Source of the DNA: Candidatus Melainabacteria bacterium
GTDB taxonomy: Bacteria > Cyanobacteriota > Vampirovibrionia > Obscuribacterales > Obscuribacteraceae
DNA: 56,655 nt
Direction: 5' to 3'
Assembly: GCA_003963305.1 (NCBI GenBank)
Contig: RXJR01000030.1
Location: 1 to 56,655 of the forward strand
The translations under genes were made by a program, and so were the position numbers. Position 1 is the stretch's first letter; every line of letters starts with the position of its first letter. The notes beneath the pieces are model-generated. The model searched no databases. It worked only from the letters and a program-made list of their open reading frames with translations, and was not told where the DNA came from. Below are positions 18,339 through 38,019 of this stretch, in pieces.

Positions 18339-20054
18339 ATGCACGCTTGCCCTGCAAGCATCCTCGGCAGCTTACAATTTAGAAGTCGTCGAGATGCTCA
18401 AATGCAAAGTCGGAAGATCAATAAACCAAGAAGTAAGCGCACCGGGTCTTGGGTCCGTGTCAGAGGCGGTCCGGTTTTCGCCTGTATAGACATGGGAACG
18501 AACTCCTTTCATATGGTTGTGTGTCAGGCCACTCCGGAGCGAGACCACTTTGAAGTAATTATCAAAGTCAAGGAAGCTGTGCCCTTTTTCAGAAGGGCTT
18601 TATCGGCTCATTACATAGACGATGTGGCCATGCGTTCAGCGTTGCGTATTCTCAAGGATATGCTTAAGAAAGCGAACGAACATGATGCTACTAGCGTTGT
18701 TGCGGTAGCAACTTCTGCCGTTCGTGAATCTAAAAATGGCGAGGAGGTTCTGCAACGTATACGCCAGGAGCTGAAACTCGACGCCAAAATGATTTCCGGC
18801 AAAGAGGAAGCTCGTTTGATCTACTTGGGCGTACTCTGGAGCATGCCCGACCTGGACGATACTTTTGCCATAGTCGATATTGGCGGTGGTAGCACAGAAG
18901 TCATTGTTGGCAATCGCGCGCAAACGTTGTTCACTGAATCTTATAAATTGGGTGCCGCCCGTCTGACCCAGCGCTTTTTTAAGAAGGGCGAACCAACTGA
19001 AGACAGCGTCCGTGAGCTGCACGACGAAGTTCGCGGCGTGCTGCGACCAGCGGCAGCGAGGGTTGACTCAGTCGGAGGTTTTAAGACCCTGATCGGCACA
19101 TCGGGAACTGTTCAGGCATTAGCCAAGATCGACCGAGAGCGTATGAAGAAACCCTATGCCGAGCTTCATGGATGGACTCTGAGTATTGAACGCCTGCAGA
19201 GTATCGTTCATTACCTGGAAGAAGCGTCGCTCCGAGGAGATCGAATCAAGGGCGTAAGCGCCGACCGCAATCAGACCGTTCTAGCAGGTGCGGTTGTGCT
19301 ATTGGAAGCGATGCGTTCCTTGCAGGCGAAAGAGACGATCGTTTGCTCCGCAGCACTCAGAGAGGGCGTTATTGTCGACCGCTTTCTGCAGACAGGATGG
19401 CTAAATGCTGGGCTTGAGCAGCACAGGGATCCACGTTCGGCCAGCGTGCATGCGTTGCTTGATAAGTATCATGGGAGTTTTGACCACGCGGAGCAAGTTG
19501 CTCGACTTTCAAGCGAAATTTTCTTGCAAACAAGAGGCATATTGCACGACTATTCGGAGGATGTTGGACACTTGTTGTGGTCGGCTGCCATGCTCCACGA
19601 CGTCGGAATGTTTATCGGCAGAAATGGACACCATAAGCATTCCTACTATCTAATTAGGCATGGTGGCATGCTTGGTCATTCGGAAGAGGAAGTGTCCGTA
19701 ATCGCGAGCATAGCTCGCTATCATCGCGGCAGCGAACCCAAGGACTCTCACGAAGCCTATTTCACAATCGCCCCGGAAGAGCGCAAGATTATGTGGGATA
19801 TGGCTGCCATTCTGCGTCTGGCTGAGTCTTTAGATCGTAGCCATCGGCAAGTCGTTAGGAATTTGCTTGTAACCTTTGACGATTCAAACGGTTCAGGACC
19901 CCCACAAACTATGCGCTTAAGCCTAAATATTGCACCGGGAGAAAATGCCCATTCTGAGGTCTGGGCACTTAATGAGAAGAAAAGCTTTTTTGAAGATTGC
20001 TTTCACGTAAAGCTTGAATTGAGTGTGGGGACTGAAAAAGTATCAGCCCGCTAG
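18339..20054 (+). CDS. Ppx/GppA phosphatase with C-terminal HD domain
   Basis: 571 aa; the N-terminal 40 residues are basic and may be excess, since an ATG for MQSRKINKPRSK lies inside. The ASKHA-type fold is shown by FACIDMGTNSFHMVVC (phosphate-1) and FAIVDIGGGSTEVIVG (phosphate-2, near residue 178), with VAVATSAVRES between and GTSGTVQALAKI after. The C-terminal HD domain has FDHAEQVARL, MLHDVGMFIGRNGHHKHS and RYHRGSEP. The family degrades inorganic polyphosphate or converts pppGpp to ppGpp; which one applies here is unknown. It is cytoplasmic. No ppk is nearby. Two palindromes follow its stop. Confidence 0.93.
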   Translation: MHACPASILGSLQFRSRRDAQMQSRKINKPRSKRTGSWVRVRGGPVFACIDMGTNSFHMVVCQATPERDHFEVIIKVKEAVPFFRRALSAHYIDDVAMRSALRILKDMLKKANEHDATSVVAVATSAVRESKNGEEVLQRIRQELKLDAKMISGKEEARLIYLGVLWSMPDLDDTFAIVDIGGGSTEVIVGNRAQTLFTESYKLGAARLTQRFFKKGEPTEDSVRELHDEVRGVLRPAAARVDSVGGFKTLIGTSGTVQALAKIDRERMKKPYAELHGWTLSIERLQSIVHYLEEASLRGDRIKGVSADRNQTVLAGAVVLLEAMRSLQAKETIVCSAALREGVIVDRFLQTGWLNAGLEQHRDPRSASVHALLDKYHGSFDHAEQVARLSSEIFLQTRGILHDYSEDVGHLLWSAAMLHDVGMFIGRNGHHKHSYYLIRHGGMLGHSEEEVSVIASIARYHRGSEPKDSHEAYFTIAPEERKIMWDMAAILRLAESLDRSHRQVVRNLLVTFDDSNGSGPPQTMRLSLNIAPGENAHSEVWALNEKKSFFEDCFHVKLELSVGTEKVSAR

Positions 20055-20179: not shown

Positions 20180-20851
20180 CTATTCGGTCTTCGTGCCAGA
20201 CGCAGCTACCTTGGAATGTACGCCTTCAGCCATCTCTTTGATGTGCGCAAGACGTTTATCTAATTTCTTTTGGGTCAAATTGTTGAAGATCAATTTTGGC
20301 ACAGGCACACCCATATCTAGATGGGTCGATAACTCCAGGATTGTTGCTTTGCCATTTTCGGCTGGTGTGAAGGTCCAGCTGCCCTCCATGGCTTTGAAGT
20401 GGTCAGACTTGAGAAGCTTGTAGTCGATCCGCTGGTTTGGCACCTCTGTATGGTGCATGACGCAAGTGGCTGAGCCTATTACTGGAAGCAAACAGAACTT
20501 TTGCTCTAGTTTCTGTTCATTAACTCCTTGCTCGAGGACTTTGCTGTACGCGATATCAGGGTCGTGTTTTCGTTCTTCGTGCACCGAGTACCAAACTACT
20601 TCAGGTGGCGCCTTAATCAGAATTTTCGAAGCAATTCTCTTTTTCTCTGAGGCGGGTTTGTCCGGCACATCCAGCAGCTTCGGAGCTTCCTCTCCTTTAG
20701 CGCCAGTTTGCTGAGCTTGAACTGCGTCTGATTTCTGTCCTGGAAGTTTGAATGCTTGACCAGGAGTTTGAGCGCTCAGGGATACCAGAAGCACTAAGTA
20801 CGAAAGCACGGTTGCTCGGATCTTTGCTGAACGAATGGGATGCTGGTTCAA
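20180..20851 (-). CDS. Exported SRPBCC (START-like) family protein
   Basis: 223 aa from a TTG with GGAGAG five bases upstream. A basic start and the hydrophobic stretch VLSYLVLLVSLSAQTPGQA form a signal peptide. A charged linker follows, then the helix-grip domain from about residue 70: ASKILIKAPPEVVWYSVHEE, later QRIDYKLLKSDHFKAMEGSW and a long C-terminal helix after VPVPKLIFNN. Such domains bind hydrophobic ligands (coenzyme-Q-binding/cyclase type). No catalytic residues are obvious. It points the same way as the operon 21249-23394 but is separated by about 400 bases. Confidence 0.85.
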   Translation of the reverse strand: MNQHPIRSAKIRATVLSYLVLLVSLSAQTPGQAFKLPGQKSDAVQAQQTGAKGEEAPKLLDVPDKPASEKKRIASKILIKAPPEVVWYSVHEERKHDPDIAYSKVLEQGVNEQKLEQKFCLLPVIGSATCVMHHTEVPNQRIDYKLLKSDHFKAMEGSWTFTPAENGKATILELSTHLDMGVPVPKLIFNNLTQKKLDKRLAHIKEMAEGVHSKVAASGTKTE

Positions 20852-21248
20852 GTTCTCTCCAATGCTGACAAAACTAGCTCGGCGTCAGCTTTTCCTTTTG
20901 CTTGATAACTAGACTACGATAGCGCAAGAATGCCCTGTTTTATTGACCGGACCATTAGAAAAAACTGAGGTTGGCAAGTGGTTGGCCGTAGAAATTCCGA
21001 ATTCTCAGTCATCTGCGTTTTTGGTTCGTATAACAAAAAGGTAATCTTTTAAGTTGTGGTGCTCAAGTTGAACTGTCTGGATGCTGCTTGGATGCGGCAG
21101 CCTCACGTCTCATCAGCTGCCTCATGCCGGCAGCTAGCCTGTCGAACAGATGAGTGCGGCGAGTCTGCCGCCCACATCATATCCTTTCAGCCAGACAGCT
21201 GAGCGAAGGCACAAGCGTCTCAGAGCCAAACGTTTGAGACTTCTCTCG
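20852..21248. other. 397-base gap with two small hairpins
   Basis: AGCTGCC (21115-21121) pairs with GGCAGCT (21129-21135). GTCTCA (21217-21222) pairs with TGAGAC (21235-21240) just behind the stop of the ICMT-like gene and may be part of its minus-strand terminator. No coding potential I can support. Confidence 0.4.
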
Positions 21249-21896
21249 CTAGACTCCAATGGGGAAGAAGCGGGGAACCAAACGTCGCCACTTCATGTTT
21301 TCAGCATAATCTTTGTAGCTCTGTCCGAGATTTTCTATCAGTAGCTGCTCCTCGTACTTCGCTCGACGAAGCCACAGTGGAGCCACTACGAACAGTGTAA
21401 AGAGTGCTGCGGGCACTGAAGTTGCTGCAAGTGATGAACCTAGCAGCGACTGGATGATACCCGAGTATGCTGGATGCATTACCAGGCTTAATAGACCTGT
21501 GTCGCGTACGGAATGATTATCCATGACTTCCGCGTCTGTGGAGAACATCTCGCCCAATGAATACCAGCCGCCAATCATAAAGATCAAACCGCTCAGGAGT
21601 ACAACGCAACCAGTCCAGGACATCACCGTCACAAGTCCGCTTGGCTCTCCAGACACCAGGGCGAAGAATGGCACCAGACTTGGCGGTAGCACACCCATGT
21701 AAGTTAAAAAGCCCACTGAAATTATGCCGATGTTGGCTAGTGACATCAGCTGCGGTGCTCGCTGAATGAGGAAGTTCTGTTCGTATTTGACGCCCGTTCC
21801 TCGGCGCGTAAATCCTTTGAATAACACCGGAGCGGAAATCAGCGCGCCTAGTCCCAGCAGGCTGAGTGCCACCAGCGAAGGTGTGTTAATTGCCAC
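21249..21896 (-). CDS. Isoprenylcysteine carboxyl methyltransferase-like membrane protein
   Basis: 215 aa with about five membrane helices. The C-terminal part has the family features: GLLSLVMHPAYSGIIQSLLG (the R/MHPxYxG block), a helix pair, then RRAKYEEQLLIENLGQSYKDY with the conserved E-E-x-L and Y-x-x-Y. The family (ICMT/PEMT/NnrU-like) methylates lipid or isoprenoid acceptors with SAM in the membrane; the bacterial substrate is unknown. The GTG start directly follows the TAA of the upstream gene (AATAAGTGGC), so the two are translationally linked. It is the last gene of a three-gene operon. Confidence 0.85.
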   Translation of the reverse strand: MAINTPSLVALSLLGLGALISAPVLFKGFTRRGTGVKYEQNFLIQRAPQLMSLANIGIISVGFLTYMGVLPPSLVPFFALVSGEPSGLVTVMSWTGCVVLLSGLIFMIGGWYSLGEMFSTDAEVMDNHSVRDTGLLSLVMHPAYSGIIQSLLGSSLAATSVPAALFTLFVVAPLWLRRAKYEEQLLIENLGQSYKDYAENMKWRRLVPRFFPIGV

Positions 21897-22661
21897 TTAT
21901 TTGTCCCCCTTCATCATAAATACGTCATCTGATAGATTTGTTGCCTTGAAGTTGCTCCAAGTGCTGTGAGCCCACAAGTTTCCGTCTCTATAGTCCCACC
22001 ATTCAACTGGTAGATTTGAGTCGGGGTCAAATAGCGCTCGTTTGAATATCGGTCCATTCGGACCACCCTTATAGAGTTCGAAAATGTGCAGTTTTTCTGC
22101 GTGACCAGGCACCTGGACAGGCGTCTCAGTCATTTTAGGCACATCGCCGTTTTTGATGTATCCTTCGACGGCCTCAGCCAGAGATACAAAGTCTGACTTG
22201 ACCATTGGCCATCCGTTTGCAGAGAGCAACATGTTGCTATCTGGAGACAGCGTGGCTGTGAAGAACTTGAATGCGCCGCCTGGATGCGCTCGCACCTTGC
22301 CGTCGCTTTGCAGGACCGCTACCGAGCCCTTCTTAGGACCGCCTGTCTGTTCGATACGCAGCAGACGTTTTTTCTTGAAGAACAGATTGCCCGTGTCTGT
22401 GACCGTGCCGTCGCTCTTGTAGCAAGTCATTTGATAGTTGAATTGATAGCTGTTCAGCGAGTCCGATGACTTCAGCCAATTGTCGATAAGTTCTTTACCG
22501 TCTTTCGTGGCGTTAGCGAAATTCTCTCGCGATAAGCCGGCTGCGTTACCCAGCAATTCTTTCTTGGCGCGAGCAACTGCGCTCTGGGAAAGCGTTCCGG
22601 ACAACGCCATCACGCATAGTGCCACTGTCAAGATTTTTGTGCTGACGGATTTACCGCTCAT
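21897..22661 (-). CDS. Exported LolA-like / DUF1571-type protein
   Basis: 254 aa. The signal peptide is KILTVALCVMALSGTLSQSAVA. The mature part has the pattern of a curved beta-sheet lipid carrier: LNSYQFNYQMTCYKSDG, NLFFKKKRLLRIEQTGG, VAVLQSDGKVRAHPGGAF and, near the end, LPVEWWDYRDGNLWAHSTWS. This resembles outer-membrane-lipoprotein-sorting or DUF1571 proteins. The role is likely periplasmic lipid or lipoprotein handling; that is inference. It lies 19 bases after the gene at 22681 and abuts the ICMT-like gene. Confidence 0.75.
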   Translation of the reverse strand: MSGKSVSTKILTVALCVMALSGTLSQSAVARAKKELLGNAAGLSRENFANATKDGKELIDNWLKSSDSLNSYQFNYQMTCYKSDGTVTDTGNLFFKKKRLLRIEQTGGPKKGSVAVLQSDGKVRAHPGGAFKFFTATLSPDSNMLLSANGWPMVKSDFVSLAEAVEGYIKNGDVPKMTETPVQVPGHAEKLHIFELYKGGPNGPIFKRALFDPDSNLPVEWWDYRDGNLWAHSTWSNFKATNLSDDVFMMKGDK

Positions 22662-22680
22662 TTTCTAGTTCCTATCCTCG

Positions 22681-23394
22681 TTACTTCTTAGCCAGACTGA
22701 GATCTTTTTTCGTCGATATTTCTTGAGAAGGGCACCCTAAAAATGCGAAAACCGCATGCAGCACTACTTCTACTTGCTCGGGCAGCTGATCTGATTTTTG
22801 TTGCTCCAGATCCTCGAGCATTCGCTTCAGCCAGAGTGCATGCTTTGTATGCGGCTTGGTATGCAGGTGAAGCCACTCCAACCCTTCCTCAATTTCCTTT
22901 TCTGAATACGAGTTGCCGCAGGCTGCGAAATATTTCTCAAAAAGCGGTAATGCCGAGCGGCAGAAGGCCGTGGCTGCCAGTTCAGCAGTGACGATTGCCA
23001 GAATGCCATCTTGATAATTTCCACTTTGACAAAAGGTGCGCATTACTTCGCAGAGGTTCTGAGTAGAGGGACTTGGAACTTCTAACGCAAGTTCCTGGGG
23101 ATTTAGGCGGGCTAATTGACATTGCTTAATGAACAATTTTTGATAAATGCGCTCGTCGTCTGCCAGTTCACTGAGCAAAAGCCGGGCCGCGTCCATGTGA
23201 GGGGGCAGAGCATCGCGCACCGAGGCAATGTTGGACGGGAGTTCTTGTATGAAATGCCATAACTGGCGGCAGCAAGCACGTCCCGATTGAAATGTCTCGA
23301 TTGAGTCTTCTTGAGATTCGAAGATGGAGCTATTGGTGCAACCCCAGTTGATCTGGCGAAGTAAGCTCGGCATCCAGCCCGGCAGCCGCCGCAT
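22681..23394 (-). CDS. Probable haem-oxygenase-like (TenA/PqqC/CADD-like) helical protein
   Basis: 237 aa, all-helical, cytoplasmic. The spacing of acidic and histidine residues fits the haem-oxygenase-like diiron fold: LPPHMDAARLLLSELADDERIYQ in the first half, then SEKEIEEGLEWLHLHT followed by KPHTKHALWLKRML. Several such proteins are iron-dependent oxygenases or the CADD enzyme of folate synthesis. No family name is certain, and a non-enzymatic fold relative remains possible. It is the first gene of the operon that continues with the LolA-like and ICMT-like genes. Confidence 0.6.
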   Translation of the reverse strand: MRRLPGWMPSLLRQINWGCTNSSIFESQEDSIETFQSGRACCRQLWHFIQELPSNIASVRDALPPHMDAARLLLSELADDERIYQKLFIKQCQLARLNPQELALEVPSPSTQNLCEVMRTFCQSGNYQDGILAIVTAELAATAFCRSALPLFEKYFAACGNSYSEKEIEEGLEWLHLHTKPHTKHALWLKRMLEDLEQQKSDQLPEQVEVVLHAVFAFLGCPSQEISTKKDLSLAKK

Positions 23395-23682: not shown

Positions 23683-24600
23683 GTGGCCAACGATTCGCTG
23701 TCTATTCTCACGGATAAGAGCAGTCACCAGGTCAGATTCGTAGCCGGTAGTGATGGGCAGCCGCTCGCTTGTCGCGTCTGGTTGGGTCGGGAAGAACTGC
23801 CGGTGGCCGTCTATCTGCATGGCATCGAAGGGCACAGCCAGTGGTTTCAAAACACCGCTAACGTCCTTTCCCAACGGGGAATCGCCGTTTATGCGCCAGA
23901 CCGACGCGGAGCTGGGTTGAACCAGGGTGAACGCGGACATCTCCAAAAGTGCCAAGAGCTGCTTGCCGACATTGAAATAATCTTACGACTGGTGGCAGCT
24001 GAGAATGTTGGAAGACCGATTGTGTTGGTCGGTAATTGCTGGGGCGGTAAGCTTGCTTCAGTTTTGGCTCGTGTTGATTATCGCTGCACTGACGCAAAAT
24101 TCCTTCCTCCGCTAGCTGGCCTGATTCTCATTTGTCCGGCGATTCATACTAAAGTAGATTTTGATTGGCGCATTAAACTGGATATCGGTTTATCTGTGTT
24201 GAAAGGCGATGTTCCGTCACGTGCACAATTAGAAATTCCCATAGAACCCACGATGTTTACCCAAGATCCGATGTACCTGGACTTTATCAAAAACGACCCT
24301 TTGCGCTTGATCAGTGCCAGCAAGAAGTTTTTCTTCGAACAATTCTTTCTTACAGTTCGAGCCAAACGCTCGGCCGGCAAGTTGACTTTGCCGACTTTGT
24401 TGATTGAGTCTGGACGCGATGAGATTGTCGATGTGTCGCTGCTCGATCGCTGGTTTGCAAATGTGCCAGCGCCGGACAAAACCAAGAAGTTGTTTGCCGA
24501 GGCCGCTCACAGCATTGAATTTGATCCTCTCTGGTTCGAACAATACTGTCAGCTTCTGGTCGAATGGATCATTGCTCGTGCACCAGGAGCAGTGGCATGA
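23683..24600 (+). CDS. Alpha/beta hydrolase with Cys in the nucleophile elbow
   Basis: 305 aa from a GTG with GAGGG about 12 bases upstream. The fold is that of serine aminopeptidase S33/monoacylglycerol lipase-like enzymes: VAVYLHGIEGHSQWF (oxyanion), YAPDRRGAGLNQGERGH, a nucleophile elbow VLVGNCWGGKLAS, the acid in LIESGRDEIVD and the His in AEAAHSIEF. The elbow has Cys119 where Ser is normal; dienelactone hydrolases use Cys in this way. It is the first gene of the cluster 23.7-32.4 kb, and its TGA overlaps the ATG of the next gene. Confidence 0.9.
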   Translation: MANDSLSILTDKSSHQVRFVAGSDGQPLACRVWLGREELPVAVYLHGIEGHSQWFQNTANVLSQRGIAVYAPDRRGAGLNQGERGHLQKCQELLADIEIILRLVAAENVGRPIVLVGNCWGGKLASVLARVDYRCTDAKFLPPLAGLILICPAIHTKVDFDWRIKLDIGLSVLKGDVPSRAQLEIPIEPTMFTQDPMYLDFIKNDPLRLISASKKFFFEQFFLTVRAKRSAGKLTLPTLLIESGRDEIVDVSLLDRWFANVPAPDKTKKLFAEAAHSIEFDPLWFEQYCQLLVEWIIARAPGAVA

Positions 24601-25790
24601 AAATTAGTTCCATAGACTCTTTTTTGATTACATTGCCTTTTCGGTTCTCGTTTAAGCATAGTCTTGCTTCTCGAGATCGTTCAGAGAACCTGGTCGTCAG
24701 GGTGACGATTGAACACAACGGTAGAACGTATGTCGGGTTTGGTGAAGGCATACCGAGAGATTACGTGACTGGGGAAAATCCAGCCGGTGCACTAGCTGCG
24801 GTTGCTAACCAGTACGCTCCGCTGCTGCTTGGCCAACAGTTCCCCGGTGCGGACGAACTGATCGCAGGTTTAGGTGAAGTCTGGAACCAACTCCGTCTGA
24901 GCAGCCGACCGCAGGGTGCTTCGTTCTGTGCTCTTGAGTTGGCTCTTTTAGACGCTGCCGGAAAGTGTGTTGGTAAGACCGTTTCGGAGTTGGTCGCTTG
25001 TCCAACTGCGCCCCTCCCTGATGCTATTACATATGGTGCAGTAGTTCCGTTTGGCGGTTCGAAAGCTTTGTCTGCCGTGCTCTGGTTCTATAAAGCCTAC
25101 GGATTTAAAACAGTAAAGCTCAAAGTTGGTAAGGACCTGGAATTTGATTTGCATCGACTTAAGGTGGCGCGCAATCTGCTCGGTCGAGACGTCAATATTA
25201 GAGTCGATGCTAACTGTGCCTGGACGTATGACGAAGCTGTAAGGGCTGCGGAACAGATGCGAGCTTTCGGCGTCAAATCTTACGAGCAGCCACTTCCTGC
25301 CGATCGCTTTGATGAGTTGGCTGCTCTTACGAAAGTGTTACCCGAGCAAATTCTGGCGGATGAATCATTGTGCACTGTAGATGATGCGCACCACCTGGCT
25401 GAAAATAAGATTTGCAGCGCCTTCAACATTCGTATCTCGAAGGTGGGTGGAATTATGGCCGCTCGCCAGATTGCGGCGATTGCTCGTCAGTTCGGAATTG
25501 CCTGTCATATGGGGGCGCAGGTTGGTGAAAGCGGTATCCTGAGCGCTGCCGGGCGAGCGTTTGCCGCTATTGAGCCGCCGTTCGATAATTACGAGGGCTC
25601 AAACAACTTCTTTCTGCTCAAGCAAGACATTACAGATGAGAATTTAAATGTCGGATGGGGAGGACAGGGAAAAATCCTAAAAAATCACGGACTGGGAGTT
25701 AACGTGAGAAATCAACGTTTACAGCAGTACCTTAATTCCGAAACTTTAAGTAATCTCCAGCCACCGCTAGTTCCCGAGCGTATTGTGTGA
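24597..25790 (+). CDS. Enolase-superfamily epimerase (dipeptide epimerase / muconate cycloisomerase-like)
   Basis: 397 aa from the ATG that overlaps the previous stop (ATGA); an in-frame ATG at 24564 inside the hydrolase gene is unlikely. The catalytic KxK is in TVKLKVGKD (about 172), the metal ligands are Asp in RVDANCAW (about 203), Glu in SYEQPLP (about 231) and Asp in LADESLC (about 255), and the second catalytic Lys is in RISKVGG (about 281). This is the muconate-lactonizing subgroup, which includes L-Ala-D/L-Glu epimerases and o-succinylbenzoate synthases. No menaquinone genes are nearby, so dipeptide epimerase or a new substrate is favoured. Confidence 0.9.
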   Translation: MKISSIDSFLITLPFRFSFKHSLASRDRSENLVVRVTIEHNGRTYVGFGEGIPRDYVTGENPAGALAAVANQYAPLLLGQQFPGADELIAGLGEVWNQLRLSSRPQGASFCALELALLDAAGKCVGKTVSELVACPTAPLPDAITYGAVVPFGGSKALSAVLWFYKAYGFKTVKLKVGKDLEFDLHRLKVARNLLGRDVNIRVDANCAWTYDEAVRAAEQMRAFGVKSYEQPLPADRFDELAALTKVLPEQILADESLCTVDDAHHLAENKICSAFNIRISKVGGIMAARQIAAIARQFGIACHMGAQVGESGILSAAGRAFAAIEPPFDNYEGSNNFFLLKQDITDENLNVGWGGQGKILKNHGLGVNVRNQRLQQYLNSETLSNLQPPLVPERIV

Positions 25791-25799
25791 GGCAATAAG

Positions 25800-27467
25800 T
25801 TGTTAAAGAACCTCGATATTTCAGTTGGCCAGTTGTTCCGTGCCTCTACGCATGTCAGACGTTTCAAGTCAGCTATGAACGATCCGCGTTCGGCGCAGGA
25901 ACAGAAACTTCTTCAGATTATCAGGGCTAACGAGAATACCGCCTTCGGCAAGAAACATCACTTCGATAAGATCAATTCCATTGCGGATTATCAGAACCGT
26001 GTCGGCGCCAACAAATATGAAAATTTGCATCCGTACATCGAGGCTTTAAAAAATGGTGAGAAGAATCAGTTAACCGCCGAATCTCCGTTCATGTTTGCCA
26101 CTACTAGTGGTACTACGGCTCAGCCAAAGTTTATTCCGATCACAAACTCGCATCTGAAAGATTATACGCATGCTTTCCAGATTCATAATTATCAAATGAT
26201 TGTCGATCACCCTGAGTGCTCGGTTGGAAAGTTTTTGATCATAACCAGCAATGACGAAGAGGGCTTCGTAGAAAGTGGTGCTCCGTATGGGGCTGTCTCT
26301 GGATTGCTCAACAAGCGTCAGTCAGCCATACTGAAGCATCACTTTTCCGTTCCCTACGAGCTTTGCAAGATCAAAGATGTAGATATGAAGTATTACTTGA
26401 TGTTGCGCATCGCCATGGCGCAGAATGTGACGGCGGTCATTTGTTGCAATCCGTCAAGCCTTCTGCTTCTAGCTGATCAGCTGAAAGAACACGCAGCAGA
26501 TCTCGTTGCTGATATATGCGATGGTACCGTCAAATCTGTGTATGCGCCGCCTCCGCATTTAGCCGCTGCTTTTGCCCGATATCTCAAACCCAATCGCCAG
26601 CGAGGCATGCAGCTTCAACGTCTGCTGGAACAGCGAGGCACGCTCAGTCCGCAACTGCTCTGGCCTAACCTGAGCGGACTAATCTGCTGGAAGGGTGGAC
26701 CCATGTCCTTCTATCTCGAGCGCTTGCCTGAGTCATTCGGCGATGTTCCCGTGCGGGATTTCGGCTACATGGCAAGCGAAGGACGCGGCTCTATCCCGCT
26801 CAGTTCAGATGGTGCCGGTGGTGTTGTTGCTCTCACCAGTCACTTCTTTGAGTTCGTTGCCGAAGAAGATGCTGATTCTGCTTCTCCAAAATTTCTTACG
26901 GCCGATCAGTTGCTCGTCGGTGGACGCTACTACATTTACTTTACGACTAACTCAGGTCTGTACCGCTATGACATCAATGATCTGGTGGAAGTGGTTGGCA
27001 TGCAATCCAACGCTCCAATCATTCAGTTCGTTCGCAAAGGGCTAGGCATTAGCTCGATTACGGGTGAAAAATTGACGGAAGAACAAGTTCTGGTTGCTCT
27101 GCAAATGGCCGTGCGACAGCTTAATCTTGCCGAGATCACTCACTTCACATCAGAGGTAGAGCTTGGCTTCCCCCCTCATTACGTGTGTTTCGCCGAACTA
27201 AATTCCGGGCTGCCTGAGTCAGTCAAAAATGAATTCATTAGAATCTTTGATCACTCGCTCAAAATGCAGAATCCCGAGTATGCTGACAAACGCTCGACCA
27301 AGCGACTGGGACTGCCTGAACTGCGGACACTTCCTTCCGGAACTTACATGCGTCTCAGACAGCAGCGCGTTGAGGAAGGCGCTCCCGAGGCGCAGGTGAA
27401 AATTCCTTTGCTCAGCTCGCCGAAATCCTTTTCGCAGAGGTTGGAACTGTTGAAAACGACCTGTTGA
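25800..27467 (+). CDS. GH3-family acyl-adenylating protein (auxin-responsive GH3-like)
   Basis: 555 aa from a TTG with GAGG eight bases upstream. The N-terminus AFGKKHHFDKINSIADYQ and the motif MFATTSGTTAQPKFIPIT (nucleotide-binding loop, about residue 98) are typical of the GH3 superfamily, as are the later YMASEGRGSIPL, GRYYIYFTTNSGLYRYDIND and TGEKLTEEQV. Plant GH3 enzymes adenylate a carboxylic acid and join it to an amino acid; bacterial members are poorly known. Here it probably activates a carboxylate made or used by the neighbouring hydrolase, epimerase and SDR genes. Its last codons and stop form the first unit of a tandem repeat. Confidence 0.93.
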   Translation: MLKNLDISVGQLFRASTHVRRFKSAMNDPRSAQEQKLLQIIRANENTAFGKKHHFDKINSIADYQNRVGANKYENLHPYIEALKNGEKNQLTAESPFMFATTSGTTAQPKFIPITNSHLKDYTHAFQIHNYQMIVDHPECSVGKFLIITSNDEEGFVESGAPYGAVSGLLNKRQSAILKHHFSVPYELCKIKDVDMKYYLMLRIAMAQNVTAVICCNPSSLLLLADQLKEHAADLVADICDGTVKSVYAPPPHLAAAFARYLKPNRQRGMQLQRLLEQRGTLSPQLLWPNLSGLICWKGGPMSFYLERLPESFGDVPVRDFGYMASEGRGSIPLSSDGAGGVVALTSHFFEFVAEEDADSASPKFLTADQLLVGGRYYIYFTTNSGLYRYDINDLVEVVGMQSNAPIIQFVRKGLGISSITGEKLTEEQVLVALQMAVRQLNLAEITHFTSEVELGFPPHYVCFAELNSGLPESVKNEFIRIFDHSLKMQNPEYADKRSTKRLGLPELRTLPSGTYMRLRQQRVEEGAPEAQVKIPLLSSPKSFSQRLELLKTTC

Positions 27468-27541
27468 GCAAAGGAAGCGACCTGTTGAACCGGGGGAGAC
27501 GACCTGTTGAGCAAGGGAAGCGACCTGTTGAGCCAGGCATG
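27457..27541. repeat. 21-22-bp tandem repeat covering a stop codon
   Basis: Four units starting CGACCTGTTGA at 27457, 27478, 27500 and 27521. The TGA of the first unit is the stop codon of the GH3 gene. The last unit runs into the ribosome site of the next gene. Confidence 0.95.
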
Positions 27542-27557
27542 ATCGGAGGACATTTAT

Positions 27558-28634
27558 ATGGCAGATCCAACGCGCGGTGCGACGGTAGCAGTTACCGGTG
27601 CCAGTGGGCTGGTTGGCAGTCACGTGGCGGAACATCTAGCTAATCGAGGTTTTCACGTTGTCGCCGTGTTACGCAAGCCCCCTGAATTTTTGGAGAAATT
27701 TATCTCTTCATACGACGGTCAGGGCTCGATCAGAGTGGCCATTGCGGACATCGAGGACGCAGACGCTCTCAAGACGGCTTTTACTGGAGTACAAGCGGTT
27801 GTCCATGCGGCTGGTAGCGTCGATCCTTTTGGTTCTCGTCAGTCTATCTTTGCCACTAATGTCGGTGGCACTCAAAATGCCCTGAAGGCTGCTGATGCCG
27901 CAGGTGTGCGACATTTTGTTTTTATCAGTTCTTTGTCTGTTATCACAGGGCAGGGAGATCAATATGATGTCGATGAATCGGCCCCTCTAAGACCTTGTGG
28001 GGAATCATATGCTGACTCCAAAATTGAGGCTGAAACTGCCGTCATGAATTTCAGGGGCTCCAGTTCCATGCAGGTAACTTCGCTGCGTCCTGGATTTATC
28101 TATGGTCCACGTGAACGATCATGGATGCCGCGGTTGATCAATTCCATCGGTACTGGTAAGGCAATGCTCATCGATGGTGGTACCAAACAGACAAATGTAA
28201 TTTTTGTAGGCAATTTAGCCAGAGCTGTCGAGCTTACTCTGTTCAACGAACGAACCTACGGTCAGGTGTACAACTTGACTGACGGACAGAAAATCTCGAA
28301 AAAAGAATTGTTTGATGCCATCGCTGATGGTTTGAGCTTGCCCCGTGTCACTAAGAAAGTGCCAGGTGCCCTGGCAAAGCTGGTTTGTCTGACTGTATCC
28401 GCCATCGCCCCGTCTCTTTCAATAGAAAAGCAGAGAGGCCTGGCGAGATTTTCGAAGGCGGCATTTCGTCTGGCGGCCGTTAATCAAGGATTCAGTGTCG
28501 CTAAAGCGGAACAAGATCTTCCTTATACCGAGCGTGTTCCCTTTCAAGAAGGCATGCGCAGTACTCTCGCGACCTTTCGCACATCTGATCAGGCTTTGTC
28601 GATTAAGCCTACCAGTGGAGCGCTTTCAAGATGA
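27558..28634 (+). CDS. Extended SDR, 3-beta-hydroxysteroid-dehydrogenase/dihydroflavonol-reductase-like (SDR 1)
   Basis: 358 aa. The start has GGAGG eight to nine bases upstream. The NAD(P) motif is VAVTGASGLVGSHVAEHL, the catalytic residues are Ser in FVFISSLSV and Tyr/Lys in GESYADSKIEAE, and the substrate side begins with SLRPGFIYGPRE. Members reduce or oxidise hydroxyl groups on sterols, flavonols, lipids or sugars. The last codons overlap the ATG of the Mpo1-like gene, showing coupling. Two more SDRs of this class follow, which suggests several redox steps on one scaffold. Confidence 0.9.
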   Translation: MADPTRGATVAVTGASGLVGSHVAEHLANRGFHVVAVLRKPPEFLEKFISSYDGQGSIRVAIADIEDADALKTAFTGVQAVVHAAGSVDPFGSRQSIFATNVGGTQNALKAADAAGVRHFVFISSLSVITGQGDQYDVDESAPLRPCGESYADSKIEAETAVMNFRGSSSMQVTSLRPGFIYGPRERSWMPRLINSIGTGKAMLIDGGTKQTNVIFVGNLARAVELTLFNERTYGQVYNLTDGQKISKKELFDAIADGLSLPRVTKKVPGALAKLVCLTVSAIAPSLSIEKQRGLARFSKAAFRLAAVNQGFSVAKAEQDLPYTERVPFQEGMRSTLATFRTSDQALSIKPTSGALSR

Positions 28635-28897
28635 TATTGAATCCCGTTGTGGCATTTCTAATTGATTATTGTCAGCGTCACAAACACCCAGTCAACGCCG
28701 TTTTGCATGTATTCGGTGTGCCAGCCGCATTTTATGGTATCTATCTTCTTTTTGTTGGGCAAGCCGGACTGGGGTGTTTACTGATCTTTTTCGGCTATTT
28801 ATTTCAATATCTTGGTCATCGGGCCCAGGGAAACGAAGTTGGCGAGGTCACCTTGATCAAGAGCATCTGGCGTAAGTTAAACAAGAGAGGATCATGA
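28631..28897 (+). CDS. Mpo1-like / DUF962 membrane protein
   Basis: 88 aa with two hydrophobic helices. Conserved histidines are in RHKHPVNAVLHVFGVPA and FQYLGHRAQGNE. This pattern matches the YGL010w/Mpo1 family; yeast Mpo1 is an Fe(II)-dependent dioxygenase that shortens 2-hydroxy fatty acids by one carbon. The protein is shorter than yeast Mpo1 but keeps the core. It overlaps both neighbours by four bases (ATGA), so it is firmly part of the cluster. It suggests a fatty-acid or lipid substrate for the pathway. Confidence 0.85.
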   Translation: MILNPVVAFLIDYCQRHKHPVNAVLHVFGVPAAFYGIYLLFVGQAGLGCLLIFFGYLFQYLGHRAQGNEVGEVTLIKSIWRKLNKRGS

Positions 28898-29877
28898 TGA
28901 CGGGCCTTAAAGAGCAACGTGTGCTGGTCGATGGTGCTACTGGTTATCTTGGCTGTCATCTGATCCACAAGCTTTGTCTCTCCGGCTCAGATGTGCGGGC
29001 ACTTGTTCATCCAGGTGCCCGTAGTGCAGACGTTGACCTTTTGAAAAATTTTGGCGCAGAGATTTTTACGGCAGACCTCAGTGTTGCAAATCCGGAAATG
29101 ACAGAATTGACCGGACAGGCGTTTTCTGGATGCACTTCGGTAGTGCACTTGATTGGTAGTGTGGCGCCGAAAAAGGGCGAGCGTCTGGAAGATTTGCACA
29201 CAGGGCAAACGCGCAATTTAGTAGCTGCTTGTAAAAAGGCTGGTGTCAAGCGCATTGTCATGATTACATCGCTTGGCGCCAGGCAGGATGCCGATAACTC
29301 TTACCACGCAACAAAGTGGATGGCTGAAAACGAGATTCGCAAAAGTGGTCTGGAATTTGTGATTTTGCGTCCACCGTTGTTATTTGGTCGCTTAACTGGA
29401 AAGCGCGACAGCAAGCTGGTCAATCGCTACAGAGAGATAATCTTGAATAAGAAAGTCGTGCCTCTTATAAACGGTGGAAAGAATAAGATCCAACCCCTTT
29501 TTATAGGCGATTTAGTCGAAGCTATTTGTCTATCATTGGAATCCGATGAACAGGGCGTCGTCAATCAGACTCTTGAAGTTGGTGGACCGCAAGTTATGAC
29601 GTTGCAGAAGTTTGTTGAAGAGTTCATGGATGCCCTCAACGTGCGCAAGCCTATCGTTGCTTTACATCCGGGAGTAGCGAGCCTTCTGGCTGTTGTCTGC
29701 GAAGCTGTGCAGACGGTGCCTACGGTTAACCGCGATCAAGTTAAGCTGGCATTGTCAGACAATGTATGTGCAGAAAATGCCTTACTGAGCGTTTTCAAGC
29801 TGGATCCGACGCCTGTAAAGAGAGCTTTTGAAAGTTACAATTCTGCAGATTCTGAAGTTGGTGCCGTTAAGTTATGA
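28894..29877 (+). CDS. NAD(P)H-binding SDR, NDUFA9-like (SDR 2)
   Basis: 327 aa, starting with ATG in an ATGA overlap with the Mpo1-like gene. The cofactor motif is VLVDGATGYLGCHLIHKL, with TSVVHLIGSVAP, IVMITSLGA and SYHATKWMAE as the later SDR blocks. FVILRPPLLFGR starts the substrate side. It belongs to the atypical SDR group that contains complex I NDUFA9 and YcfA-like proteins. The Tyr-x-x-x-Lys pair is present, so it may be active. It ends the tightly overlapped part of the cluster. Confidence 0.88.
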   Translation: MMTGLKEQRVLVDGATGYLGCHLIHKLCLSGSDVRALVHPGARSADVDLLKNFGAEIFTADLSVANPEMTELTGQAFSGCTSVVHLIGSVAPKKGERLEDLHTGQTRNLVAACKKAGVKRIVMITSLGARQDADNSYHATKWMAENEIRKSGLEFVILRPPLLFGRLTGKRDSKLVNRYREIILNKKVVPLINGGKNKIQPLFIGDLVEAICLSLESDEQGVVNQTLEVGGPQVMTLQKFVEEFMDALNVRKPIVALHPGVASLLAVVCEAVQTVPTVNRDQVKLALSDNVCAENALLSVFKLDPTPVKRAFESYNSADSEVGAVKL

Positions 29878-29928
29878 GTTTTAGCTGGTGAAGCGGGCAC
29901 TAGTGCTTTTTTCTGGACTTTCTTGAGT

Positions 29929-29950
29929 TTTTAACTGATATCAGCTTAAG
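29929..29950. repeat. Dispersed GATATC palindrome, copy 7
   Basis: TTTTTAACTGATATCAGCTT, GATATC at 29937-29942, lies between SDR 2 and SDR 3 (both plus strand). This 230-base gap may divide the cluster into two transcripts. Confidence 0.9.
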
Positions 29951-30107
29951 CTCGCTAAATCTTTCCAAAACTCCCTGATATTCAGGAAACTGCAAGATTT
30001 TTCGTCCTTGCTGACAAGGCCCCTAACTGGCTTGCCTCGGATACACTATCTTCAGGATAGTTCGTCGAACCTGTTTCCTTTGAGCATGGTCCGACAGAAC
30101 GGAGCAA

Positions 30108-31196
30108 TTGCCGTTGGTAGACCACGAAAAACAAGAGAAAAAGATTCTGGTGACCGGAGCCACAGGCTTTATTGGTTCCAAACTGGTTCGGCGTTTACAC
30201 GAACTTGGTCATCATGTGAGAACTTTTGGGCGTAGCAGCGGACTCTCCAATCAGTTTGCCGGTATGAATATCGAGCACTACGGTGGAGATATCACCAATC
30301 CGGAGCAAGTATCGTCGGCGGTGCAAAATTGCGATGTGATTTTTCATTTGGCCGGGTTGGTTTCATATAAGAAGCGCGACATTCAGCGACAGTTCGGTGT
30401 AAACGTGCTCGGTACTCGCAACGTTCTTGAAGCGGCGCAGAAGCACCATGTCAAACGGGTTATTCATACAAGTTCCGTAGCCGCCATAGGCATACCGCCA
30501 CGCGGAGAAATCGGCACTGAGGAACTCGAATACAATTTGCTTGGAAAAGGGCTGAATTACTGCGATTCGAAGTACGAAGCTGAATTGCAGGTCAGGCACT
30601 TCTATCAAGAGGGTGTCCCGGTTCTCATGCTCAATCCGGGCATTATTTTTGGAGAAGGTGATACACATCCTCATCATCACGCTATTTTCGAGTCGATGTC
30701 TAAGGGAAATCTATTTGGCGTTCCCCCTGGCGGCATTCCATTCTCTGATATCGACGACGTTGTCGATGCGCACATCACCGCAATGACTAAAGGACGGCTC
30801 GGCGAGAGGTATGTTCTGGTCAGTGCCAATTTGAGCTTCCGTGATGCAGCGCTAGTTTTCTGCAATCAGATGCACACGAAACCTCCTGCATTCGAATTTC
30901 CGGGATGGCTTCTGGTTGCAGCCGGTACGTTTTGTGAAAATGTCTTGCCAAATTTGCCCAAATTGAAAATTGGCAAACTGACTATCTCCAAGCCTATCAA
31001 TGCTCCACTCACCAGGCAACAGACCTGGTTGAGCCAGCACAAGATCTTTTTCAGTTCTCAGAAAGCAATCGACGAATTGGATTTTCATCAGACTGCATTT
31101 GAAGAGACTGTTAGGCGAACGGCGCCTTATTATCTGGGCGTTCAAAGGAATCGATTGGGAATAAAAGATGCCGGTGCCACAAGCGGGCAGGCGTAG
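30108..31196 (+). CDS. Extended SDR, dihydroflavonol-4-reductase-like (SDR 3)
   Basis: 362 aa from a TTG with GGAG five bases upstream. The cofactor motif is ILVTGATGFIGSKLVRRL, followed by DVIFHLAGLVSYK, VIHTSSVAAIG (Ser) and LNYCDSKYEAE (Tyr/Lys). The C-terminal third, after IPFSDIDDVVDAH, matches hopanoid-associated or flavonol-type reductases. It is distinct from SDR 1 and SDR 2. It is followed 85 bases later by the His-rich membrane protein. Confidence 0.9.
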   Translation: MPLVDHEKQEKKILVTGATGFIGSKLVRRLHELGHHVRTFGRSSGLSNQFAGMNIEHYGGDITNPEQVSSAVQNCDVIFHLAGLVSYKKRDIQRQFGVNVLGTRNVLEAAQKHHVKRVIHTSSVAAIGIPPRGEIGTEELEYNLLGKGLNYCDSKYEAELQVRHFYQEGVPVLMLNPGIIFGEGDTHPHHHAIFESMSKGNLFGVPPGGIPFSDIDDVVDAHITAMTKGRLGERYVLVSANLSFRDAALVFCNQMHTKPPAFEFPGWLLVAAGTFCENVLPNLPKLKIGKLTISKPINAPLTRQQTWLSQHKIFFSSQKAIDELDFHQTAFEETVRRTAPYYLGVQRNRLGIKDAGATSGQA

Positions 31197-31281
31197 GGTG
31201 ATTCTAAGTTGTTACCGGCATAAATGGCGGGTTGACGATGGCGCCGATTGCTATTTCAGAGCTTGCCTCACGATTTGAAAT

Positions 31282-32445
31282 TTGAACTATCCGGGTAAGA
31301 TGCGAAGTAGCTTCTCACCCAGGGCTTTCTACTTGAACAGTAACTCCGCGCAGACATCGCCGCAGTCACCAGTCAAACTTTATCCATGGATTGTTAATCG
31401 ATTCGTAGATTTTTTCTTTGTCTACGGAGGACTGGTCTGGATTTTTTTGCTCGTAAATTTGCTTGTTCTTGGTTGGAGTGTTCCGTCCAGTGCAAATTCC
31501 GGAACTCCTTTTGCAAGAGCCTTGCTAGTTGCGGTGTTATTAGGGCAACATCTTTTTGCTGATTCTCACACGGCCGCGACTTATTTACGTATTTATCCCG
31601 GTGCCGACAGCAGGCAGCGTTTTGAATTTTTTACGAAGTATTTGCCACTCGCTCTGGTGCCGACTTTTTTTTATGGACTGATCGCTCCTGGTGGTGCGGG
31701 TGATCTTATTTATCTCTACCTGCTTTTAGTATTCTGGCACTATGCGGCCCAGAGTTTTGGAATCTCTCTGATCTATTGCTATAAGCGTGGTTATTTTCTG
31801 AAGAGCTGGGAGCGTGAGACTTTCAGGTGGTTTGTCTATACCATGATCATTTTTATTTTTATTCGCATGTTGACCTTTCGCGAATTCAGTCCACATGCGT
31901 TTCTCGGCATTAGATGCCCATTTTGGGGACCTCTTCCAGTTTGGCTATATCAAGTTTCTCAGCTCGTTTTTATTGTAGTATCAGCTCTATTCTCAATCAC
32001 GCTCGTCAGGAAGACTCTCATAGAAAGAAAGCTGCCACCATTTCCATCGATTTTGCTGATTGCGACTGTAGCTTTGATTGGTTTTAGCCAGGGGGCGCTG
32101 AACTCAATGTGTTGGCTGTACGGACCTGCTTTCTTTCATGGCAGTCAGTACATTGCCGTTTCTATGGCGTACTACCTGAAAGAGCGTGGGTTGCCTGAGG
32201 GAGCGCCTCCAACGGCGGTAACTGCATTGTTCTGGAAGTCCTCTACATTCGAGTATATGGGACTGATAGTTTTGTCAGGCGTGTTCATTTACGTTGGTAT
32301 ACCGCATTTCTTCCAGCAAATCGGATTTGATTTCGCATCCGTAGCCGTCGTCTGTCTCGCTGTATTTAATTTCCATCACTTCGCTACTGACGCGGCAATC
32401 TGGAGACTGCGCGATCCAAATCAGCGCCGAATACTTCTCGCGTAG
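31282..32445 (+). CDS. Polytopic membrane protein with conserved-looking His clusters
   Basis: 387 aa, about eight membrane helices (starting near residue 45 with VDFFFVYGGLVWIFLLVNLL). Family not named. Histidines sit at helix ends in LGQHLFADSHTAATY, VFWHYAAQSFG, PAFFHGSQYIAV and FNFHHFATDAAIWRLRD, a distribution seen in membrane di-iron enzymes such as desaturases and hydroxylases, though the canonical HxxxH/HxxHH spacing is not met in full. It could be an oxidase acting on the product of the cluster, or a transporter. The ATG at 31302 and the start at 31282 are both possible. It is convergent with the TPR gene that follows. Confidence 0.75.
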   Translation: MNYPGKMRSSFSPRAFYLNSNSAQTSPQSPVKLYPWIVNRFVDFFFVYGGLVWIFLLVNLLVLGWSVPSSANSGTPFARALLVAVLLGQHLFADSHTAATYLRIYPGADSRQRFEFFTKYLPLALVPTFFYGLIAPGGAGDLIYLYLLLVFWHYAAQSFGISLIYCYKRGYFLKSWERETFRWFVYTMIIFIFIRMLTFREFSPHAFLGIRCPFWGPLPVWLYQVSQLVFIVVSALFSITLVRKTLIERKLPPFPSILLIATVALIGFSQGALNSMCWLYGPAFFHGSQYIAVSMAYYLKERGLPEGAPPTAVTALFWKSSTFEYMGLIVLSGVFIYVGIPHFFQQIGFDFASVAVVCLAVFNFHHFATDAAIWRLRDPNQRRILLA

Positions 32446-35794: not shown

Positions 35795-35962
35795 TGCGCC
35801 GGTCTATGATGTCTGAATCATACTCCCTATGCGCCTTTAGCGGCATAAAAAAATCAGTCAAGGCGTCCTGTTGGTGCATATTTCAATGTGGTACTAGAGC
35901 TATAGAATTACTATATAAGCGGTCGAGCATGCGACAATGTGCAAACTAATTGGAGAAAGTTC

Positions 35963-37276
35963 TTGTTGTTCTTGGCGTCAACCAGCTGTCAGCGCGCATC
36001 GTTTCTTGCTTTCATTCTTGCCCTCAATTGTCTTCAGGCGGAATCAGTCGAAGTCAAAGATAAAATGTTGCAGAGCTATGTTGCTTATCGTCAGGTATAT
36101 TCAACTGAAACTGACAAGCATTTGAGTCTGGGGATGACCACCGGAGCCGCAGATGACTGTCCAGCCGTTGCAAATTCACAGACGACGGAGAATGCTTTGC
36201 TGAGAAGTTCGTCGACGACTGCACCTACGGCTGACCCTTCCTCTGGCGACCAGTCTGTGTCTGATGTTCTGAAGGCGGAACAAAAAAGAGAGAAGGAGCT
36301 GCTCGAACTTTCTAAAACCAAAAAAGGCGTCAAGGTCGGCAATGCGCCTTGCCTGACCTGGCTGCCTCCTGATGGCAATACAAGAGCGGTGATTCTTTGT
36401 GTGCATGGATTGGGACTTCACAACGGAACTTATGCCGATTTTGGTCAGGTCATGTCCAGTAAGGGATTTGCAGTTTATGCAATCGATGTTCGTGGATTCG
36501 GCTCCTTTATGGAAGCTAAAGGGCGCGAGAATGTGGATTTTGATGGTTGCCTGAACGATGTCCAGGCGACGCTAAAGGTGTTGCATCGTGCTCACAAGGG
36601 ATTGCCGGTCTATTTGCTTGGAGAGTCTATGGGCGGGGCAATCGCACTGCGGGCTACGGCTATTTATCCCGAGCTTGTTGATGGGCTGATTTCTTCGGTG
36701 CCTGCCAACGATCGTTTCAGGCAAAATCACACGCGATTAAGTGTTGCCATTCATTTGCTGGAAAATCCAGATAAACCATTTGACGTCGGCAAAGACATTG
36801 TTTCGCAGGCGACAAATAAACAAGATCTGCGTGATCAGTGGTGCAAGGATCCTCTCAATAAGCTGAACTTGTCGCCGAAGGAACTTTTGCAATTTCAGCA
36901 TTTCATGAATCAAAATCATAAGGCGGCCAGGCTAATCCAGGTGACACCGGTGTTGTTTGTTCAAGGCTGCAATGACAAATTAGTCAAGCCCATGGGAACA
37001 GTTGAGTTGTTTAATGAGCTGGCCACCAAAGACCGACGGTTGGACTTGCTTCCAAATACGGAACATCTGATCTTCGAAGAAAATCAATTTACGGCGGAGG
37101 GGATAAACAAAGTGATTGATTGGATTGACGCACATCTGGTACCTGATAATGCAACTGGAGTGGACGGCAAGTCTCGCACCGCATCTGGTGCGGAATCTAG
37201 TGTTGGATCAGTGAATAAGGTGCCCACATCACCTACAAATCGATCTGACGGCACTGCTGGTATCCAATCGTTTTAG
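35963..37276 (+). CDS. Exported alpha/beta hydrolase (lysophospholipase/monoacylglycerol-lipase-like)
   Basis: About 437 aa from a TTG at 35963, chosen because GGAG lies seven bases upstream; a GTG at 35939 is in frame and adds eight residues. A hydrophobic N-terminus (ASFLAFILALNCLQA) looks like a signal peptide. After a low-complexity spacer the fold begins near residue 135: VILCVHGLGLHNGTYADFG, YAIDVRGFG, nucleophile elbow LLGESMGGAIAL (Ser), acid in FVQGCNDKLV and His in PNTEHLIF. All catalytic residues are present. The Ser/Thr-rich tail after residue 385 is variable-looking. It is followed 41 bases later by the TPR-thioredoxin gene. Confidence 0.88.
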   Translation: MLFLASTSCQRASFLAFILALNCLQAESVEVKDKMLQSYVAYRQVYSTETDKHLSLGMTTGAADDCPAVANSQTTENALLRSSSTTAPTADPSSGDQSVSDVLKAEQKREKELLELSKTKKGVKVGNAPCLTWLPPDGNTRAVILCVHGLGLHNGTYADFGQVMSSKGFAVYAIDVRGFGSFMEAKGRENVDFDGCLNDVQATLKVLHRAHKGLPVYLLGESMGGAIALRATAIYPELVDGLISSVPANDRFRQNHTRLSVAIHLLENPDKPFDVGKDIVSQATNKQDLRDQWCKDPLNKLNLSPKELLQFQHFMNQNHKAARLIQVTPVLFVQGCNDKLVKPMGTVELFNELATKDRRLDLLPNTEHLIFEENQFTAEGINKVIDWIDAHLVPDNATGVDGKSRTASGAESSVGSVNKVPTSPTNRSDGTAGIQSF

Positions 37277-37317: not shown

Positions 37318-38019
37318 GTGCGTAAACTAGTCCGAATTATTTTTTTTGTAATGCCATACCTCTTGTCACTGTTTCTGCCTCCGTTTAATGCCGCTGGTGC
37401 GGCTGTTGACTCACTTACTTGTGGGAAACAGTGCATGAAGCGAGGTCAGTACAAGCATGCGCTTAGCGATTTCCAAATGGCTGTAAAAAAATCGCCAAAG
37501 AGTTGCGAGGGACACCTGCTACTTGGACAGGTCTACTGCAAATTGAAGCAGTATAAAAATGGCAAAGAACAGTTACGTCTGGCAATTCGCTATGGGCACG
37601 GTTCGACAAATGCTCAACAGGCGAATGTTGAGATGATGAAATTGCCGCAGGAATTAATTGCACCTAAAACGGGACCTGAGACGCAGAAGCTTGCAACGAT
37701 TTTAAGCACACAATCTGGCGGAGGCAATTCTCCCAGACCAACGGTGATTGATTTTTATGCTACCTGGTGCAATCCGTGTCAGCAATTGCACACGATTTTG
37801 GAAAAGGCGAAAGTCGAGTACGGCGATAAACTAGCTGTTATTCGTGTTGATGTGGATGATGAGAAGAACCAGAATCTGATTGATCAGTATGATGTCAGTC
37901 CGATACCGACGCTTGTATATTTAGACGCTCATGGCCAGGTCGTTTCCTTTTCAGTCGGATACCCCGGTGAGGCCGCCATTAACCAGGAATTGAAGAAAAT
38001 TCTCGCATCAGGGCTGTAA
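37318..38019 (+). CDS. Exported TPR-thioredoxin protein
   Basis: 233 aa from a GTG. The N-terminus (LVRIIFFVMPYLLSLFLPPF) is a signal peptide or anchor. One to two TPR units follow (LLLGQVYCKLKQYKNGKEQL), then a thioredoxin domain from about residue 140 with IDFYATWCNPCQQLHTIL; C151 and C154 are the redox pair and the cis-Pro is in SPIPTLVYLD. Its site is CNPC rather than CGPC, which can shift the redox potential. It probably acts in the periplasm as a disulfide reductase or cytochrome/thiol partner. Confidence 0.9.
   Translation: MRKLVRIIFFVMPYLLSLFLPPFNAAGAAVDSLTCGKQCMKRGQYKHALSDFQMAVKKSPKSCEGHLLLGQVYCKLKQYKNGKEQLRLAIRYGHGSTNAQQANVEMMKLPQELIAPKTGPETQKLATILSTQSGGGNSPRPTVIDFYATWCNPCQQLHTILEKAKVEYGDKLAVIRVDVDDEKNQNLIDQYDVSPIPTLVYLDAHGQVVSFSVGYPGEAAINQELKKILASGL

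Follow-up and report, generated by a model that had tools for sequence, protein, structure and literature searches.

A GH3-enolase gene cluster conserved in the Obscuribacterales and its possible role in the synthesis of an acyl-amide compound

Introduction

To our knowledge, no role has been assigned to the majority of GH3 enzymes in bacteria, and OlsH is the only characterised one that we found in the literature searched. In Singulisphaera acidiphila, OlsH makes N-acyl-ornithine, and the co-located alpha/beta-hydrolase-fold protein OlsI is an O-acyltransferase (PMC12493201). Here we analyze a cluster of eight genes, designated A to H, at positions 23683-32445 of contig RXJR01000030.1 (56,655 nucleotides, referred to throughout as the window), which belongs to the 7.48 Mb genome of a Candidatus Melainabacteria bacterium. 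The cluster encodes a GH3 acyl acid amido synthetase (C) beside an alpha/beta-hydrolase (A) and an enolase-superfamily enzyme (B), as well as three extended short-chain dehydrogenases/reductases (SDRs; D, F and G) and two membrane proteins (E and H). From sequence comparisons, we judge the chances to be about even that this region encodes the biosynthesis of an acyl-amide compound as a core rather than strain-specific function, the compound being most likely an aminolipid-like component of the membrane or envelope.

The cluster resembles OlsH/OlsI ornithine-lipid synthesis in outline, in that a GH3 enzyme and an alpha/beta-hydrolase are co-located within a family without OlsB, but it is not that pathway. 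It differs from the OlsH/OlsI/OlsG pathway (PMC12493201) by the addition of an enolase-superfamily enzyme, three SDRs, and Mpo1-like and membrane proteins, and by the absence of an OlsG-type methyltransferase among A to H. The main text of the OlsH/OlsI paper does not mention an epimerase, and the likeness of A to OlsI (Sinac_1601) is one of shared fold class and gene context only. Gene product C scored 104.7 bits against NCBIfam NF052613, for which the cut-off is 620, and was rejected as an OlsH protein. OlsB-based ornithine lipid synthesis was also rejected, because the OlsB family was missing from 49/49 genomes of the family of the window. The preliminary description of this DNA had proposed an unreported pathway, and we likewise found no paper on a module of GH3 and enolase in the open-access literature, a search that left most subscription journals outside.

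Results

The eight open reading frames (ORFs) lie on one strand in the order A to H, and ATGA overlaps couple A to B (24597), D to E (28631) and E to F (28894). The cluster, its coordinates, its gene families and these overlaps had all been reported in the preliminary description, and ORF calls and Pfam matches bore them out. The same description had reasoned that the cluster would be accidental if homologues of its genes were not co-located in related genomes. We compared 47 GH3 neighbourhoods from the family of the window, the Obscuribacterales; the named relatives that the GH3 profile detected are Candidatus Obscuribacterales/Melainabacteria, on the non-photosynthetic side of the Cyanobacteriota. 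The results showed that A-B-C-D-E-F-G were collinear and on the same strand in 35/35 eligible loci, i.e., those on contigs of sufficient length, at GH3 identities as low as about 53%. An orthologue of C was present in 48 of the 50 family genomes, with identities of 54-89%, and one genome (G022, 98% complete) had neither GH3 nor a strong match to B. Gene H was kept in 18/33 loci, with two copies in some, and is accessory. Conservation falls off with the next genes downstream: i, j and k were kept in just 7, 5 and 4 of 33 loci, and the cluster boundary is placed there. On the other side, a divergent block of four genes, w-v-u-t (20180-23394), was kept in most relatives (w in 35, v in 37, u in 33 and t in 27 of 37 loci), and the conserved region is therefore larger than first reported. 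Together, these comparisons support the view that A to G form a real, co-inherited functional unit, beyond what chance would produce. Given that almost all members of this large and mostly uncultured family retain the cluster, its product is likely to be a structural part of the cell.

Orthologue hidden Markov models were then run on distant GH3 loci and on the neighbourhoods of strong B homologues in Chloroflexota, Planctomycetota and one nanoarchaeal phylum. The order A-B-C was found in two Chloroflexota loci (L185 and L186), and in a third (L180) A and B were fused as one 693-aa ORF with C directly after it. Six Planctomycetota loci (L189-L194) carried A, B and C in this order, and the genes were rearranged in three others (L182, L197 and L199). 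B-C was seen in L187 and L207. On two archaeal contigs (L183 and L184), B and C were separated by one gene. A D homologue adjoined B in a planctomycete (L198) and was also present in L199 and in a Chloroflexota cluster (L181), which read D, A, a second GH3, G and E, followed by B and C, and so included an E homologue as well. Comparative gene order shows A-B-C to be the predicted core functional module of the cluster, a concrete three-gene unit. The two archaeal contigs (L183, 10811-12661, and L184) come from reduced genomes of 1.4-1.7 Mb, and the one protein encoded between B and GH3 is about 610 aa long. A wider archaeal spread was not borne out, as the seed genome alone gave a strong B match when 237 genomes from this nanoarchaeal phylum were sampled.

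We also determined how often B and GH3 occur together in 343 Planctomycetota genomes, scoring GH3 by PF03321 and strong B by E<=1e-80. GH3 was present in 99/343 genomes and strong B in 28/343, and all 28 strong-B genomes carried GH3 (hypergeometric p=3.5e-17, a value that ignores phylogeny). Strong B was likewise found in a further 5/5 planctomycetes chosen via GH3, and 13 of the 17 genomes in the intermediate band (1e-80 to 1e-54) had GH3. In the controls, GH3 occurred in 22/128 genomes (17%) whose best match was another enolase paralogue (E 1e-54 to 1e-25) and in 36/170 genomes without any B match; these low rates confine the link to the B subfamily. On the GH3 tree the label ‘with B’ changed at least five times, so that a single inherited event does not account for the linkage, which was gained or lost repeatedly. 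A large group of bacterial GH3 enzymes is now tied, by near-perfect co-occurrence, to a specific partner enzyme.

The N-terminal, middle and C-terminal GH3 domains of C exceeded their Pfam cut-offs (PF03321, 220.1 bits; PF23571, 69.6; PF23572, 78.6), and C aligned with JAR1 (4epl) along its length (E=9e-49). The reference motifs of GH3 enzymes are SSGTSxGxPK, YGSSE and GLYRYRLGD (PMC12493201); the corresponding nucleotide-binding motifs of C are TTSGTTAQPK (101-110), YMASE (323-327) and GLYRYDIND (386-394), and their core residues were conserved in 19 orthologues. Thus, the alignments show that C keeps the GH3 active-site motifs, and amide formation is predicted. Full-length homology and the three motifs are shared with the plant acyl acid amido synthetases JAR1/GH3.11 and GH3.12, from which C differs in its distant sequence and its bacterial operon context.

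The closest PDB matches of A were monoglyceride lipases, with which it shares the fold family and the Asp and His of the triad. Unlike these lipases, A does not have a Ser nucleophile in a GxSxG motif: Cys119 (codon 24037-24039), in the motif GNCWGGK, aligns with the lipase Ser, in agreement with the earlier assignment of a Cys-hydrolase. Cys119, Asp246 and His276 were invariant in 19 aligned A sequences, which shows a putative Cys/Asp/His triad. The Cys form was also found in Chloroflexota (L180, L181 and L185) and in some Planctomycetota (L182 and L197), and Ser was present in other planctomycetes.

The residues of B, numbered here from the Lys codon at 24600, include the metal ligands D203, E229 and D254 and the KxK base K173/K175, which were kept in 81/81 B sequences and are those of the muconate-lactonizing subgroup of the enolase superfamily. 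The fold, D/E/D ligands and KxK base are common to dipeptide epimerases, N-succinylamino acid racemases (NSARs) and muconate lactonizing enzymes. B is unlike all three in its own conserved loops (H20 and R25; PRxYVTGE) and in Arg278 (codon 25431-25433), which aligns with K266 of 3RIT, the second catalytic Lys of dipeptide epimerases. Arg occupied this position in 80/81 B homologues, the exception (L179) being also the weakest match. Previous studies showed that the acid-base pair of the dipeptide epimerase 3RIT is K162/K266 (PMC3965090), and that racemases of the enolase family work with a Lys/Lys pair (PMC8142540). The preliminary description had named B an epimerase; however, the pair is Lys/Arg here. 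Since the second catalytic Lys is replaced by Arg, classical epimerase activity is improbable for B, and the active-site change points to a different reaction, with one-base elimination or cycloisomerisation appearing more likely than classical racemisation. The predicted structure of B (AlphaFold2 [AF2], mean predicted local distance difference test score [pLDDT] 89.6) matched muconate lactonizing enzymes, NSARs and dipeptide epimerases in the PDB about equally, and fold was rejected as an arbiter of the reaction because Foldseek/VIA tied these three. In some planctomycetes B stands alone and is transcribed divergently from a gene for an HpnH-like radical SAM protein (DUF3463) of the hopanoid-pathway type (L195, 8402-9658, by Pfam; L177, Gimesia, 10622-11791, by eye).

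The three SDRs D, F and G fall in the Pfam class of NAD-dependent epimerase/3Beta_HSD SDRs, and the best NCBIfam matches of D were OleD-type 2-alkyl-3-oxoalkanoate reductases (145.7 and 131 bits). E matched PF06127 at 36.8 bits (cut-off 24), over profile positions 4-63 of 95 only, and its invariant residues are H17, H26, H63 and E69. The activity that defines the Mpo1 family is the Fe(II)-dependent alpha-oxidation of 2-hydroxy fatty acids. The invariant His residues of H include H90, H96, H153, H286, H342, H365 and H366; neither Pfam nor the PDB gave a sequence match for H, and its AF2 model (pLDDT 60.5) was too poor for a structure search.

Discussion

If the cluster makes an acyl-amide compound, C would convert a carboxylic acid of fatty or polyketide type into its acyl-adenylate at the cost of ATP and would couple this acyl group to an amine, probably that of an amino acid. 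D, F and G may set keto or hydroxyl groups on the acyl chain, and we propose that a hydroxyl would thereby be free for O-acylation. A could serve as an acyltransferase in the role that OlsI has beside OlsH, its intermediate being an acyl-thioester where the nucleophile is Cys and an acyl-ester where it is Ser. The KxK lysine of B would take the alpha-proton of a carboxylate of the pathway and, with no second lysine, would most likely drive a one-base beta-elimination (dehydration) or a cycloisomerisation. E and H may contribute to chain oxidation or trimming. We suggest more tentatively, as a possibility somewhat short of probable, that B represents an undescribed isofunctional family of the enolase superfamily with a Lys/Arg pair, its substrate being the acyl or N-acyl-amino-acid compound that GH3 uses, and that in Cyanobacteriota, Chloroflexota and Planctomycetota the A-B-C module makes amide lipids of a class not known so far, as does B-C alone in nanoarchaea. 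The product might be a lipid already seen in environmental lipidomes without assignment.

Outside the family, the gene contexts point to a link with acyl metabolism. In L199 a reducing type I polyketide synthase (PKS) with a thioesterase adjoins GH3, and in L178 PlsX adjoins B. The triad is followed in L190 by a patatin and a second alpha/beta-hydrolase, and in L182 by an AMP ligase and UbiD, whereas in L195 the neighbour of the solo B is the HpnH-like radical SAM protein. These contexts, together with OlsH/OlsI (PMC12493201), fit the lipid or acyl-amino-acid product that had been suggested from the window. The accompanying remark that PKS genes are lacking is true of the window, though not of all homologous loci, as L199 illustrates. 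Several observations weigh against the pathway proposed here. The substrate role of B is drawn from context alone, in most planctomycetes A carries a Ser, which also suits a plain hydrolase, and the linkage of D to H is less widespread than that of A-B-C. The co-occurrence statistic takes no account of phylogeny, and B is often not adjacent to GH3 in planctomycetes, lying within about 3.3 kb in about 11/28 genomes. Furthermore, a genome of the same order (G002) has strong B with no GH3 detected, and five GH3-bearing Spirochaetota/Bacteroidota genomes are without B, which is therefore not general to GH3.

Three other explanations were weighed. B might be an N-acylamino-acid racemase or epimerase that inverts the alpha-carbon of an N-acyl-L-amino acid made by GH3, giving a D-configured acyl amino acid. 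Such a substrate is the expected product of its neighbour, dipeptide epimerases are the best sequence matches of B, and its fold is like those of N-succinyl Arg/Lys racemase (2p88, Z 47) and the NSARs (Z 45). However, muconate-lactonizing enzymes are equal on fold score, and the replacement of the Lys/Lys pair in nearly all homologues makes this reaction unlikely in our view. A different proposal is that the cluster serves conjugation and deconjugation, for signalling or detoxification: GH3 would cap carboxylic acids with amino acids, much as plants do to control hormones, and A would hydrolyse the conjugates, as happens when hormone conjugates are turned over. The alignment of C to JAR1/GH3.12 along its length and the homology of A to monoglyceride lipases would suit such a cycle, which we nevertheless consider rather improbable: nearly all members of the family keep the unit along with three SDRs and membrane proteins, its homologues stand in PKS, PlsX and patatin contexts, and a Cys nucleophile is unusual in an amide or ester hydrolase.

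An Ole-like pathway, in which A, C and D stand in for OleB, OleC and OleD and convert a 2-alkyl-3-keto acid into a beta-lactone or an olefin, was suggested by the OleD-type matches of D and by the adenylating enzyme and alpha/beta-hydrolase that adjoin it. These matches are far under the OleD cut-offs (580 bits), and the genes do not make up an OleABCD set: no thiolase (OleA) family was found among A to H or the flanking genes scanned, GH3 is not OleC, and A has a Cys and is monoglyceride-lipase-like. B would be left without a role, and we regard this pathway as very unlikely.

Neighbouring genes and other observations

The coordinates of the cluster and of the divergent block are given in Table 1. 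A scan of the region for promoters and terminators gave no signals above those of shuffled sequences.

Table 1. Genes of the cluster (A to H) and of the divergent block (t to w), with positions in the window.
Gene	Positions	Strand	Predicted product	Basis
A	23683-24600	+	alpha/beta-hydrolase, monoglyceride-lipase type	Hydrolase_4 PF12146, 138.7 bits
B	24597-25790	+	enolase-superfamily enzyme, muconate-lactonizing subgroup	Pfam MR_MLE_C
C	25800-27467	+	GH3 acyl acid amido synthetase	three GH3 Pfam domains
D	27558-28634	+	extended SDR, 3Beta_HSD/OleD-like	Pfam; YxxxK present
E	28631-28897	+	Mpo1-like (PF06127/DUF962) small membrane protein	Pfam
F	28894-29877	+	extended SDR, NmrA-like	YxxxK present
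G	30108-31196	+	extended SDR, HpnA-like	YxxxK present
H	31282-32445	+	polytopic membrane protein, many invariant His	no Pfam family
t	22681-23394	-	TENA/THI-4, CADD-like protein, divergent to A	family match
u	21897-22661	-	protein with hydrophobic N-terminal segment, DUF1571-like	weak match (19.7 bits) to planctomycete DUF1571 protein adjoining B
v	21249-21896	-	ICMT/PEMT-like membrane methyltransferase	family match
w	20180-20851	-	polyketide cyclase/START-like (family with lipid-transport members)	family match

Directly outside the divergent block lies a gene for a Ppx/GppA phosphatase (18339-20054), which is conserved beside it in most relatives. Downstream of the cluster, the window encodes a second alpha/beta-hydrolase (35939-37276), with Ser in the motif GESMG, and a TPR-thioredoxin protein (37318-38019). 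An orthologue of this hydrolase gene is found directly after G in several genera (e.g., L053, L063 and L074), an arrangement that resembles the second hydrolase after GH3 in planctomycetes.

The genome of the window carries a GH3 paralogue of about 42% identity on another contig (C13), which was placed outside the unit because it is not near any cluster gene. A second GH3 clade, also about 42% identical (L085, 9026-10705), is present in most Obscuribacteraceae outside the cluster. A third, very divergent GH3-like gene in the genome of the window (L089, 8978-10588) adjoins a gene that by eye is Rieske-type oxygenase-like.

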